The position numbers were made by a program, and so were the translations under genes. DNA of 64,000 bases from Chloroflexota bacterium (GTDB lineage: Bacteria > Chloroflexota > Dehalococcoidia > Lucifugimonadales > Lucifugimonadaceae): NCBI GenBank assembly GCA_002718415.1, contig PBEM01000009.1, positions 62,001 to 126,000 on the forward strand, given 5' to 3'. This document shows positions 49,932-55,676 of the stretch, piece after piece; within the stretch, counting starts at the first letter, position 1, and every line of letters starts with the position of its first letter. The notes below the pieces were generated by a model. That model saw only the letters and a program-made list of their open reading frames with translations, searched no databases and was not told the origin of the DNA.

Positions 49932-50609
49932 ATGTCAGTTTCAGAGTTAGAAATAATAATTATTTCATTAAGGTCATCGCTTTTAGCTATTTTTTTAATT
50001 CTTCCTATAGGAATAATAGTTTCATGGATAATAACCAAAACAAATTTTAAGCTAAATTTTCTTTTAGAATTAATTAGTTCTCTACCTTTAGCATTACCTC
50101 CTGTAGTAACAGGATACTTTTTACTTTGGATATTAGGTTCAAATTCTTTTATTGGAAAGTATATAGAGTCATTATTTAATTACAATTTATCATTTACATG
50201 GATAGCTACTGTTTTTGCTGCAGCAATAGTATCTTTTCCTTTAGTAGTAAGATCTTTCATTGTGGCATTCCAATCTGCTGATCCTGAACTTGAAAAATGT
50301 GCACGTGGATTAGGTGCAAATAATTTAAAAATTTTTATATCCATCACATTACCACTATCATTGAAAGGAATCATGGCAGGTTTGTTATTGGGGTTTGGTC
50401 GTGCTTTTTCAGAATTTGGAGCTACTATTGTTGTAGCAGGGAATATTCCTGGAGAGACCTCCACCATTCCCCTTGCCATATATACTAATATTATTGTAGG
50501 AGATCCGGGATCTGCCACAAGACTTATAATTATTTCTATTGTTATAGCAATAATTACTTTAGGGATTCATAATAATCTTTCTCGTTTTGGAAGTTATAGG
50601 AAGGCTTAA
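49932..50609 (+). CDS. modB: Molybdate ABC transporter permease
   Basis: A 225-residue inner-membrane permease with about five hydrophobic helices. The ATPase-coupling loop reads 'EKCARGLGANNLKIFISITLP' (the EAA motif), and 'SLPLALPPVVTGYFLL' is a ModB signature. 'GRAFSEFGATIVVAGNIPGET' near the C-terminal part is likewise typical. It pairs with ModA and ModC as the transport channel. It starts 5 bases after the modA stop. Confidence 0.95.
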   Translation: MSVSELEIIIISLRSSLLAIFLILPIGIIVSWIITKTNFKLNFLLELISSLPLALPPVVTGYFLLWILGSNSFIGKYIESLFNYNLSFTWIATVFAAAIVSFPLVVRSFIVAFQSADPELEKCARGLGANNLKIFISITLPLSLKGIMAGLLLGFGRAFSEFGATIVVAGNIPGETSTIPLAIYTNIIVGDPGSATRLIIISIVIAIITLGIHNNLSRFGSYRKA

Positions 50610-50617
50610 GAAATATT

Positions 50618-51682
50618 TTGGAAATCAAGTTTAATTTTATTGTTAAAAATGGGATATTTATTGGTGAATATAAAGGTAAATTAAGTAATGGAATAACTAC
50701 AATTATAGGACCTTCTGGTTGTGGTAAGACTACTTTTTTAAGATGCTTCTCTGGAGATCTAACTCCATTTAATGGTGATATTAAATTAGGAGAAAAGATT
50801 TTATTTTCAAAAACGAATAGGATTGATGTGCCTATTAATAAGAGGAATGTTTCTACTGTTTATCAAAATCATCTGTTATTTCCTCATATGAAAGTTAAAA
50901 ATAATATTGAATATGGTTATAAGATCAAGAATAGACCTTTAAGAATAAATACTTCAGAGATTTTACATATATTGAAAATTGAACATTTATTAAATAAATT
51001 TCCACATCAATTATCTGGAGGAGAGGCCCAACGAGTTGGTTTAGCACGAGCTATATTTTCGAATCCTGACATTTTATTAATGGATGAACCTTTTACTTCT
51101 CTAGATTATGATACTAAAGGACCAATATTATTATATTTAAAACAATTACAAAAAAAATTGAACATTCCGTTTTTTTTTGTAACGCATTCTTTAGAGGAGA
51201 TGTATTACATGTCCGATCAAGTTATTTTGATGAACAAAGGGCAAATAATTTCTGTTGGGAATCCCGATACAATTATATTAAATAAAATTGATGGTATTTC
51301 AAATAAAATAAGTAATTATATTCATGGTGAAATACTTAGTATATCTGATGAGAAAATCGCACAAATAAAAATAGGAAATATTGAATTATTTGCTCCAGTA
51401 AAATTAGCTCAGGTAGGATCTAATATTTTAGTACATTTTTTTGCTAATGATGTAATAATTTCTACTTCAAATATGTCTAATGTTTCAGCTAGGAATTTAA
51501 TAAAAGGGGAACTGATTGCTTATCGATATATAGATACTTCTTGTCTATTAACTCTTTTGGTACAAGATATTGAAATATATGTCGAGATTACTAAATTTTC
51601 TATGGAAAAATTATCAATTACAATAGGAAATGATTTATATATGATAATAAAGAGTTCAAGTTGTAATGTAGTAGAATATTAA
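50618..51682 (+). CDS. modC: Molybdate ABC transporter ATPase with TOBE domain
   Basis: A 354-residue ABC ATPase. Walker A is GPSGCGKTT (about 32-40), the signature is 'LSGGEAQRVGLARAIF', Walker B is 'ILLMDEPFTSLD', and the switch is 'FVTHSLEEM'. The C-terminal part (about 225-354) matches TOBE/MOP-type oxyanion-sensing domains ('YIHGEILSISD', 'LAQVGSNILVHFFANDVIIS'), which in ModC can bind molybdate and inhibit transport. The TTG at 50618 is the apparent start. pyrF follows 3 bases after its stop. Confidence 0.93.
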   Translation: MEIKFNFIVKNGIFIGEYKGKLSNGITTIIGPSGCGKTTFLRCFSGDLTPFNGDIKLGEKILFSKTNRIDVPINKRNVSTVYQNHLLFPHMKVKNNIEYGYKIKNRPLRINTSEILHILKIEHLLNKFPHQLSGGEAQRVGLARAIFSNPDILLMDEPFTSLDYDTKGPILLYLKQLQKKLNIPFFFVTHSLEEMYYMSDQVILMNKGQIISVGNPDTIILNKIDGISNKISNYIHGEILSISDEKIAQIKIGNIELFAPVKLAQVGSNILVHFFANDVIISTSNMSNVSARNLIKGELIAYRYIDTSCLLTLLVQDIEIYVEITKFSMEKLSITIGNDLYMIIKSSSCNVVEY

Positions 51683-51685
51683 GAA

Positions 51686-52492
51686 ATGGGAATATTTCAT
51701 AAATTAAAATCAATTATCGATAAAAAAAAATCTTTTGTATGTGTGGGTTTAGATCCACATAAAGATTATTTGCCTATTAGTGATGTTTTAGAATTCAACA
51801 AAATTATTATAGATTCCACAATAGATGTAGTCTCAGCCTATAAACCACAATTCGCATTTTATGAATCTCTTGGTTTGGAGGGATTGAAACAACTAAAACT
51901 AACGATTGAATATATAAAAAATACTTCAGACGACGTTCTAATAATAGGTGATGCTAAAAGGGGAGATATTGATTCTACTTCGGCAGCTTATGCAAATAGT
52001 TTATTTAATTATTGGGAATTGGATATAGCTACTGTAAATCCTTATATGGGGAGAGATAGTATCTTACCTTTCTTAGAATATGAAAATAAAGGGATATACG
52101 TGATTTGCAGGACATCAAATATGGGAGGAAAAGATCTTCAGGAGTTGAAACTTGACTCTGGAGAGAAGATTTTTGAAAAAGTTGCTGAGTACTGTGATGA
52201 AATTTCTATTGAAGACAATTTAGGTTATGTTATAGGAGCGACATATCCTAATGAGATAAAAAGCTTAAGGCAAAAATATCCATTTAGATCTTTCTTAATT
52301 CCTGGAATAGGTAAACAGGGTGGAGATTTAAAAAATTCCGTGGATTCAGCAAAAGACTTTGACAATACTGGATTTTTAATTAATGCATCTAGATCTATCA
52401 TTTTTTCAGCTAAAAATAATGAAGATTTTGGCTCGTCTGCAAGAAAAGAATCAATTAAATTGAGAGATAATATAAACAATTTATTAATATAG
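51686..52492 (+). CDS. pyrF: Orotidine 5'-phosphate decarboxylase (type 2)
   Basis: A 268-residue TIM-barrel enzyme that decarboxylates OMP to UMP, the last step of pyrimidine synthesis. Active-site blocks are 'FVCVGLDPHKDYLP', 'VSAYKPQFAFYE' and the Lys/Asp network 'IGDAKRGDIDSTS'. 'VIGATYPNEI' and 'LIPGIGKQGGD' form the phosphate side. The length and layout fit the longer bacterial PyrF type 2 class. It is physically in the modABC unit (3-base gap), not the pyrR-carB operon. pyrD and pyrE are not in this window. Confidence 0.95.
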   Translation: MGIFHKLKSIIDKKKSFVCVGLDPHKDYLPISDVLEFNKIIIDSTIDVVSAYKPQFAFYESLGLEGLKQLKLTIEYIKNTSDDVLIIGDAKRGDIDSTSAAYANSLFNYWELDIATVNPYMGRDSILPFLEYENKGIYVICRTSNMGGKDLQELKLDSGEKIFEKVAEYCDEISIEDNLGYVIGATYPNEIKSLRQKYPFRSFLIPGIGKQGGDLKNSVDSAKDFDNTGFLINASRSIIFSAKNNEDFGSSARKESIKLRDNINNLLI

Positions 52493-52618
52493 ATTTTAGT
52501 AAATTGAATTTAAAACTTAAAACTTTCATAAAATCTTAGATTATTTGGATTAATTTCGATTTCGTTTGATTATAATTTGAAAAACATAGATAACGATAAT
52601 TAGGTATTATGAATTTTT

Positions 52619-53212
52619 ATGATTGAATTAGAAATAGAAAGTATAAGGGTAAATAAGATTTTTCAATCTAGAGTGGTACTTTTAAAAGATATTAATTCAG
52701 ATAGATATCTACCTATATATATTGGGAATAGTGAAGCTTCTGCAATGGCTGTTCAATTAGAAAAATTTGAGACTAAGAGACCTCTCACACACGATTTAAT
52801 ATATCAAATGACCGAATTAATGGGCTGGAAATTTCAAAGGATAATTGTTTGGAAAATAGAAAATGATGTTTTTTTTGCAAAAGTAATTATTTCAAGAGAA
52901 TCTAAATTTATTGAGATTGATGCTAGACCATCTGATGCTTTAAATTTAGCTATAAGAGCGAAAGTACCTATATATGCTGAAGAAAAGGTTATGGATATAA
53001 GTTCCATAACTATAGATCCAGAAACAGGAATCCCAGTTGTAGGGAATCAAAATGAAACATCAGATTCTGATGGTCTTCATGTTCCTTTGGGAAAAAAAGA
53101 ATTAGATTCATTATCTATATTTGAAGATTTTGTAGAATCACTAGATATGAAGGGTATTGGTTTTGAGCAAAATGATGAGGACGAAGAACCTGAACCTCAG
53201 TCAGAAAAATAA
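52619..53212 (+). CDS. Bifunctional nuclease (BFN/DUF151) domain protein
   Basis: A 197-residue protein. The BFN domain (about 1-130) has 'YLPIYIGNSEASAMAVQLE', 'RPLTHDLIYQM' and 'IDARPSDALNLAIRAKVPIY', the conserved Asp-Ala-Arg-Pro-Ser-Asp block. Some family members cut DNA and RNA, but the bacterial role is not settled. The C-terminal 60 residues are acidic and probably flexible ('EQNDEDEEPEPQSEK'). It precedes the ATP synthase genes by 6 bases and may be co-transcribed with them. The 126-base gap before it contains TATAAT at 52571 but no clear -35 at good spacing. Confidence 0.88.
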   Translation: MIELEIESIRVNKIFQSRVVLLKDINSDRYLPIYIGNSEASAMAVQLEKFETKRPLTHDLIYQMTELMGWKFQRIIVWKIENDVFFAKVIISRESKFIEIDARPSDALNLAIRAKVPIYAEEKVMDISSITIDPETGIPVVGNQNETSDSDGLHVPLGKKELDSLSIFEDFVESLDMKGIGFEQNDEDEEPEPQSEK

Positions 53213-53437: not shown

Positions 53438-53499
53438 AAATTCCTTTTTTGAAACTAACATTTTTTTTTAAATAGTTTTAAGATAGTTTGGGAGAATTA

Positions 53500-54807
53500 A
53501 TGATAAGTCTAAAATCTTTTATAATAATTTTTTTTGTAGCTACGTTTATATTGTCTATCATTGGTGGTGCTCTAGGAAATTCTTTTGGTAGCTTCGGTGG
53601 ATTTTTGGGAGGTCCTGTTCCTTTTATTTCTGTGCCAGCAGAAAAGTTTGTAGAAATTTATGGATATAAATTGCTCAATTCTACTGTTATGTTTTGGTTT
53701 GCTGGACTTCTATTATTGTTAATAGTCTGGTTAGGAACTAAAAATATCAATCAAATTCCAAATCGTATGCAAGGTTTATTAGAGGTTATATTTGAATTTT
53801 TTGCTAATTTATGCGATACAGTTGCAGGGGGAGGATCTAAATCAGGTAGAAGATTTTTACCTCTTGTAATAATCATTTTTCTTGTTGTTCTTTTCTCAAA
53901 CTGGGTTGGTATTATTCCAGGAGTTGGTTCCATTGGACAAATAGAAACTTTAAGTGATTGGGTACATCATAAAGAACATCAAATAGAATCTGAAATTATA
54001 GAAAATTACCCAAACTTGAATCATGAAGAACATAAATACCTTATTGATTTAAAAATCTTATCTAAAGATGAAACATTTGTAATATTTGATGGCCCATGGG
54101 TTCATTTAGGAATGGGAGAAAAGGATAGAGTGCCTATAAGTGCATTGGTTAATTTTGATGCAGATCAGGTTGATATGATTTATAAAAAGATAAAATCTGA
54201 TTACAGCATTATTTCTTTGGATAGATCTTTGGTTGCAAAGGATGTGGAATTTTTGAAAAAACTTCATGAATCAGTACATCATGATATTGAAATTGGTAAA
54301 GTAATAAAAAATTTCGATCTAGTTGGTAATTCTAATTACAACAATTGGGATAAGCATGAAGGTAAAACAGCAGGCTTACTTGTACCGTTTTTTAGAGGTG
54401 CTAATACAGATTTAAATACTCCGTTGGCTATAGCTATTTTTGTAATTATTGTTGTTCAATTCTGGGGATTTAAAGCTCTTGGATTTAAGTCTTATGCAGG
54501 TAAATTTTTTGTTAATCCTATTAGTAAAGGTCCAATTAATTCATTTGTGGGGATTCTTGAATTTTTAGGAGAATTCACTAGGGTAGTTAGTTTTACTTTT
54601 AGATTATTTGGGAATATGTTTGCTGGTGAAATACTTCTCATTGCTATGGCATTTTTATTTCCTTTAATAGGTATAATCCCATTTATGGGAATGGAGTTAT
54701 TTGTTGGTGCTATTCAAGCATTTATTTTTGCAATGTTGACTCTGTTTTTTGGTGTAATGGCTGTGGCAAGTCATGAAGGTCATGATTCAGATTCAGAAGA
54801 TCATTGA
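53500..54807 (+). CDS. atpB: F-type ATP synthase subunit a with large external insertion
   Basis: The membrane stator subunit that forms the proton half-channels next to the c-ring. The conserved half-channel region is intact: the essential Arg in 'FTFRLFGNMFAGE' (about Arg368), Glu in 'GMELFVGAIQ' (about Glu399) and Gln406. The protein is 435 residues, against the usual 240-300. The excess lies between the helix ending 'NWVGIIPGVGSIG' and 'FFRGANTDLNTPLA', about residues 147-293, and is hydrophilic with ten histidines. By E. coli topology this loop faces outside. The start is ATG 53500, with GGGAG upstream. The frame is continuous, so this is not a frameshift artefact. Confidence 0.95.
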   Translation: MISLKSFIIIFFVATFILSIIGGALGNSFGSFGGFLGGPVPFISVPAEKFVEIYGYKLLNSTVMFWFAGLLLLLIVWLGTKNINQIPNRMQGLLEVIFEFFANLCDTVAGGGSKSGRRFLPLVIIIFLVVLFSNWVGIIPGVGSIGQIETLSDWVHHKEHQIESEIIENYPNLNHEEHKYLIDLKILSKDETFVIFDGPWVHLGMGEKDRVPISALVNFDADQVDMIYKKIKSDYSIISLDRSLVAKDVEFLKKLHESVHHDIEIGKVIKNFDLVGNSNYNNWDKHEGKTAGLLVPFFRGANTDLNTPLAIAIFVIIVVQFWGFKALGFKSYAGKFFVNPISKGPINSFVGILEFLGEFTRVVSFTFRLFGNMFAGEILLIAMAFLFPLIGIIPFMGMELFVGAIQAFIFAMLTLFFGVMAVASHEGHDSDSEDH

Positions 54808-54850: not shown

Positions 54851-55123
<273 letters not shown>

Positions 55124-55175: not shown

Positions 55176-55676
55176 ATGGGTGCATTAGGTATCAGTATTT
55201 CACAATTACTTACACAAGTAATAAGTTTTTTGATACTTTTTTTCTTGCTTTATAAATTGGCTTATGGTCCTCTTATAAAGATGTTGGATTCTAGATCAGA
55301 TAAGATTAAGGAAAGTCTTGATGCTGCAGAGAAAGCAAAAGATTCCGTTAAAGAATCTGAAGATAGGATCGAGAAAGAACTCGCTAATGCTCGTCAGGAA
55401 GGTCAAAAGCTTATTTCTGATGCACGGGAAGCTGCTGAAAGAATTAGGAATCAAGAAATTGCTAAGGCAAAAAAAGATGCTGAAGATTTAATCAGTAAAG
55501 CTAAATCGGAAATTATTTTAGAAAAGGAAACAGCAATTGAAAATCTAAGGAAAGATTTTGCTGCCCTATCTATTATTGCAGCTGAGAAGATCATAAAAAA
55601 GAACATTAATAAAAGTGATCATGAAACCTTAATTAATGAAGTAATAAATAATGAATTGGATTCTATACAAAAATGA
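55176..55676 (+). CDS. atpF: F-type ATP synthase subunit b
   Basis: A 166-residue stator stalk protein. One N-terminal membrane helix (about 8-28) is followed by a long charged coiled coil ('DAAEKAKDSVKESEDRIEKE'-type sequence) reaching to the C-terminus, where it meets subunit delta. There is a single b gene, so a homodimer is expected rather than the b/b' pair of photosynthetic lineages. GAGG precedes the ATG. Its stop overlaps the start of atpH by 4 bases. Confidence 0.95.
   Translation: MGALGISISQLLTQVISFLILFFLLYKLAYGPLIKMLDSRSDKIKESLDAAEKAKDSVKESEDRIEKELANARQEGQKLISDAREAAERIRNQEIAKAKKDAEDLISKAKSEIILEKETAIENLRKDFAALSIIAAEKIIKKNINKSDHETLINEVINNELDSIQK

Follow-up and report, generated by a model that had tools for sequence, protein, structure and literature searches.

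A predicted histidine- and acid-rich ectodomain in ATP synthase subunit a of SAR202 bacteria

Introduction

Few parts of ATP synthase are as constrained as subunit a, and in the solved bacterial forms its external loops are short. Two described systems have His and acidic residues at a channel mouth of this subunit. In E. coli Fo, an external funnel about 30 Å wide and lined with carboxylate and imidazole groups is a proposed proton antenna; it is built of short loops and the N terminus of subunit b, without a separate domain (PMC9447477). In P. aeruginosa, a metal ion held by four fixed ligands (Glu/His/Asp/His) of the C-terminal tail caps the cytoplasmic channel (PMC12796488). The nearest solved enzyme to the one considered here is that of Chloroflexus aurantiacus (PDB 9itj–9itx series), whose 18 entries together contain 36 chains of a, 72 of b and 180 of c, i.e., a2 b4 c10; by themselves, these chain counts suggest that the natural enzyme has two stators per ring.

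Here we describe subunit a (AtpB) of a SAR202 bacterium (Chloroflexota, Dehalococcoidia), in which a predicted folded domain stands between the transmembrane helices aH3 and aH4. Such a domain, shared across a clade of abundant ocean bacteria with a cultured member and apparently positioned where protons enter, may tune the proton collection of the motor. As a natural module that could be added or removed, it would make the long-debated proton-antenna idea testable.

Results

The atpB gene and its insert

The window, i.e., the whole 64,000-nucleotide stretch of DNA analysed, holds a complete atp operon in the consecutive order I-a-c-b-delta-alpha-gamma-beta. On its plus strand, atpB (53500–54807) encodes an F-type subunit a of 435 residues, the only AtpB copy in the genome, and its ATG at 53500 is preceded by a Shine-Dalgarno-like GGGAGA (53490–53495, plus strand). 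The gene is flanked on the same strand by an AtpI-like small membrane protein matched by PF09527 (53219–53437) and by atpE (subunit c, 54884–55123) and atpF (subunit b, 55176–55676). PF00119 matches AtpB at 140.4 bits (curated cut-off 33.9) in two pieces flanking residues 147–290, and the profile score, the channel residues and the operon setting together place the protein in the subunit a family. The NCBIfam equivalog TIGR01131 reaches 92.0 bits against a cut-off of 102.6, likewise in two stretches with the insert between them.

As the first-pass annotation had stated, the channel residues are intact. The essential motif R368-L-F-G-N372-M-F-A-G-E377 (54601–54630, plus strand) is present, as are Q406 and E399, the latter occupying what we take, from its spacing to Q406, to be the position of E. 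coli H245. Among 77 relatives, N372, E377 and Q406 are invariant and R368 is conserved in at least 90%. The C-terminal tail of AtpB bears His; by homology it would be cytoplasmic, close to the metal-binding site of P. aeruginosa.

The segment between the two PF00119 pieces (residues 147–290; 53938–54369, plus strand) comprises about 144 residues and lies between aH3 (residues 116–138; 53845–53913, plus strand, from the AlphaFold2 model and homology to 9itj_T) and aH4 (residues 306–327; 54415–54480, plus strand, from the model). It contains 10 His, 27 Asp plus Glu and 17 Lys plus Arg, including the His clusters that had been noted near its two ends, H156-H157-x-x-H160 (HHxxH) and H260-H261. The His content is 6.9%, compared with 1.66% in the 52 open reading frames of the window (binomial P 1.6e-4), and none of the 10,682 other 144-residue windows in these frames has 10 or more His (highest 9). 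Hydrophilic 144-residue windows alone have a mean of 2.6 and a maximum of 9. The reported His-rich insertion of about 145 residues thus stands. Across the 77 full-length AtpB proteins, acidic residues outnumber basic residues in every insert (77 of 77), and His makes up 6.8% of the inserts compared with 1.6% of the remainder of the protein. The His enrichment is thus relative to a mainly transmembrane core and to the proteins of one window. The membrane core is an imperfect null for this bias, here and in the phylum-wide loops described below, because polar residues rise in any hydrophilic loop.

An assembly error or a frameshift is ruled out as the source of the extra length, because a same-genus genome has a protein of equal length with 90% identity. 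Upstream of the operon (49932–53212) are genes that look like those for the permease and ATPase of an ABC transporter, an orotidine-phosphate decarboxylase-like protein and a bifunctional-nuclease-like protein, the last of which adjoins atpB in many SAR202 loci.

Predicted fold of the insert

In the AlphaFold2 model of the whole subunit (pLDDT 76), values above 80 cover the greater part of the insert's first half. The domain modelled alone with 73 relatives reaches pLDDT 87 and pTM 0.82. This model begins with a strand (145–150), followed by helices 151–169 and 175–188, a strand (192–197), a short strand, and helices 221–233 and 246–265; a closing strand (290–299) runs on to aH4. As modelled, with both strands and helices, the insert is an ordered, folded alpha/beta domain. 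The earlier description of the segment as helical-looking is borne out by four long helices, though it is incomplete given the three strands. Disordered filler finds no support in view of the confident model of the lone domain, and the segment is conserved throughout the lineage.

The insert matches neither a known curated family nor a solved fold. Pfam returned no family (best NUCB1_N, E 0.11, below the cut-off) and NCBIfam no match, so in these two collections there is no sign that the insert is a captured domain of a described family such as Biotin_lipoyl. Against solved structures, the best hits were E 1 for the PDB by sequence, E 4.0 for Foldseek and Z 3.0 for VIA-align; a viral library gave a best E of 1.8. 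The novelty of the segment, which had been proposed subject to a family search with the insert alone, therefore stands with respect to curated families and solved structures.

Location and ion type

The SAR202 subunit a core aligns with subunit a of C. aurantiacus, mycobacteria, PS3 and E. coli. The C. aurantiacus protein (chains T/Z, 312 aa) is the best solved match (E 4.7e-77; Z 18.4, rmsd 5.4 Å over 245 residues), and it shares with SAR202 the phylum and the LVP(L/F)(F/L)R...DLN edge leading to aH4. The SAR202 profile matches C. aurantiacus through residue 140 and resumes at residue 168; the unmatched stretch is much smaller than the SAR202 insert, and the profile finds no match inside it. 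By homology with these solved subunits, the insert would be external, beside the mouth of the input half-channel; the subunit model is of a lone subunit, and the closeness of the domain to the channel mouth follows from the same homology. SAR202 cells are monoderm (PMC10444878), so the domain would face the outside medium. The suggestion of an external cap over the half-channel thus agrees with an extracytoplasmic placement, and the capping itself is plausible.

The site of the window subunit c reads E-A-L-A-I-Y, and nearly all relatives have EA(I/L)(A/G)IY; the Na+-type signature (ES/ET) is absent from the window protein. With a proton-type EA(I/L) site in the c subunits, the entering ion would be the proton.

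As in the E. coli funnel, carboxylate and imidazole groups of the SAR202 subunit a would be external and near the entrance of the input channel, the side being assigned by homology, but SAR202 has a domain where E. coli relies on short loops together with the N terminus of subunit b (PMC9447477). With the P. aeruginosa cap it has in common that His and acidic residues of this subunit would stand by the opening of a channel; the P. aeruginosa site is cytoplasmic and its ligands lie in the tail (PMC12796488), whereas the SAR202 insert is in the external aH3–aH4 loop.

Distribution and origin in SAR202

The host genome is 1.06 Mb at 74% completeness, and its small size resembles that of streamlined euphotic SAR202 genomes (PMC11994032). 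A search of this genome for rhodopsin gave no match at that completeness, and the control likewise gave none. The nearest named relative is the marine Chloroflexi MAG PBDR01000022, with 90% identity across the segment. Further relatives are MAGs of SAR202 and Dehalococcoidia, together with the cultured Candidatus Lucifugimonas marina JH1073 (CP046147, 164-aa loop). All 46 surveyed AtpB proteins of the clade, Candidatus Lucifugimonas marina included, have a long loop of like kind with the conserved core (76–171 aa). Within the family, all AtpB proteins recovered at full length have a like loop, with 108–188 aa between GIIPGVGS and DLNTPLAI, and about ten more families of the order also carry it; other members of the order have 35–42 aa between the same two motifs, or two inserts of different sequence. 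Judged from these alignments, the insert is lineage-wide and conserved rather than unique to the host genome, which answers the check proposed at the outset. The first-pass annotation had also raised the case of relatives sharing the loop with a described function; the relatives do have the loop, and the literature searched gave no earlier description of this domain or of a function for it.

In an AtpB tree of 121 cores, built with the loop excluded, the SAR202-type carriers fall together with the lineage designated f31 into a single group of 46 members, each with a long loop (SH-aLRT 95), which points to a single origin of the SAR202 insert. Viral relatives of the insert were not found. Searches of 148 class genomes gave seven matches, each within an AtpB-sized frame, and no stand-alone copies.

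Conserved positions and selection

Among the 77 proteins, the consensus reads SIGRIETxEExVHH...FVVFDG....P.GRGE...GKxAGLLVPFLRGASTD. E149 at the base of the insert (53944–53946, plus strand) is conserved in 94% and is present in all 46 members of the surveyed clade, and H157 within HHxxH (53968–53970, plus strand) is conserved in 88%. F196 and G204 of the core TFVIFDGPWVHLGMG (192–206; 54073–54117, plus strand) are each conserved in 97%, and G292, P296, R299 and D304 in 100%. H157 and E149 are the only widely conserved His and Glu of the insert, respectively.

These two residues, together with the HHxxH cluster itself, are grounds for supposing that the insert is a metal-binding gate, in which HHxxH (156–160) and E149 would bind Zn, Cu or Ni at the external mouth and act as a brake or seal on the channel, or as a metal sensor. 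The P. aeruginosa cap offers a precedent (PMC12796488), and stretches such as HHLHHSDDHGDDHH occur in some relatives. However, there is no invariant set of four ligands, H157 is absent from some family members (e.g., VEEFLEVKIV), Cys residues are few, and the precedent lies on the opposite side of the membrane. Given the variable His positions, bulk chemistry or clade-specific sites fit better than a single fixed metal site, and we regard the metal gate as unlikely.

The conserved F196/G204 core combined with a variable outer part would also suit a structural contact domain, which would stabilize Fo assembly or touch another stator part, the c N termini, a second subunit a across the ring or an envelope protein. 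This role gains some weight from the nearest solved enzyme, that of C. aurantiacus, whose entries each contain two copies of a, four of b and ten of c, an arrangement that SAR202 may share. Against it, a partner gene was not found in the operon and the insert varies in length from 76 to 171 aa, which leaves a contact function rather improbable, though still worth considering.

In 27 non-overlapping close pairs, the dN/dS of the insert is 0.002–0.34 where dS is unsaturated, and that of the AtpB core is usually below it in the same pairs; for the window AtpB and its nearest relative, the values are 0.18 for the insert and 0.06 for the core. The insert thus appears to be under purifying selection, constrained though less than the core.

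Inserts at the same loop elsewhere in Chloroflexota

Across the phylum survey, the aH3–aH4 loop ranges from 7 to 237 residues, the value of 7 belonging to a divergent long-branch row. Long loops outside the SAR202 group require about ten parsimony changes, at least four of them forced by well-supported branches; these counts are approximate, because single-gene trees of such length hold many weak nodes. When the SAR202 core hairpin was compared by hhalign, the f31 lineage scored 94.6% and three families (f42, f44 and f49) a weak 43%, and nine other long-loop families were unmatched. The f31 insert (G180, L147), from the same class, resembles that of SAR202 in its hairpin LVIFDG..GTRLIPIG, which aligns with the SAR202 profile, and the lineage is sister to SAR202 in the AtpB tree, but the flanking segments are unlike in sequence. 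Elsewhere in Chloroflexota, the loop appears to have gained unrelated inserts several times, so that a universal enzyme has, in this single loop, a phylum-wide hot spot for insertions.

Three of these loops merit description on their own account. The 89-aa loop of L164 (G392, f45) matches Biotin_lipoyl (E 2.9e-7, 30.7 bits, cut-off 22.1), i.e., a barrel-sandwich domain of the biotinyl/lipoyl type within ATP synthase subunit a. The 132-aa insert of L059 (G040, f5) weakly resembles ribosomal L15/L18e, just below the cut-off (E 3.8e-4, 21.2 bits, cut-off 21.5), as though it had been acquired from part of another protein. The longest loop, that of L203 (G374, f40), is 237 aa long, contains 11 His and 42 acidic residues, and has no detectable relatedness to the SAR202 insert.

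The loop is rich in His and acidic residues in every length class, with family means of 4.8–6.5% His compared with 0.7–1.3% in the core. His exceeds the core in 65 of 70 family averages, and acidic residues outnumber basic ones in 63 of 70. In 52 of 56 other families, an acidic residue or His lies at +7 to +11 past the proline of aH3. Since the bias recurs in inserts without detectable relatedness, the chemistry seems to persist where the fold does not.

The repeated use of this loop also suits a tolerated elaboration, in which the loop simply accepts insertions and the domain, fixed by drift, is kept because it must fold. The unrelated inserts of several Chloroflexota families, the faster evolution of the insert relative to the core and the absence of stand-alone copies all agree with this explanation. 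Nevertheless, all 46 clade members retain the insert, streamlined genomes included, its dN/dS is far below 1, and inserts without detectable relatedness share the His/acid bias; drift is accordingly the account to which we give the least credence.

A proposed role in proton collection

Because the His/acid chemistry is kept though sequence and even fold change, a bulk role is favoured over a fixed metal site or partner, and proton capture or buffering is the bulk role that the pattern favours. We tentatively propose, as a reading with a reasonable though less than even chance, that the insert is an enlarged proton-collecting antenna at the external channel mouth, the collection step itself being conjectural. 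SAR202 would have gained, once, a folded ectodomain on the stator subunit a, in the external aH3–aH4 loop and at the outer opening through which protons enter the half-channel. Its surface, dense in imidazole and carboxylate groups, would draw protons off the membrane surface or out of dilute alkaline seawater and pass them to the channel entrance, with the membrane-adjacent E149 and H157 as the putative last relay. Against an antenna, most His positions of the insert are not conserved, the His enrichment is relative to the limited baselines given above, and exported proteins of marine organisms often have acidic surfaces. The broader proposition, that a dedicated stator ectodomain collecting or gating protons was gained once in SAR202 while separate Chloroflexota insertions converged on the same His/acid chemistry, is possible but somewhat more doubtful.

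We note that the subunit c open frames downstream of five atpB genes of the survey (L094, L096, L101, L103 and L113) extend upstream into a basic, hydrophilic stretch (e.g., ERKGPWRAQLEEIITKITEFKGLE), a candidate N-terminal extension.
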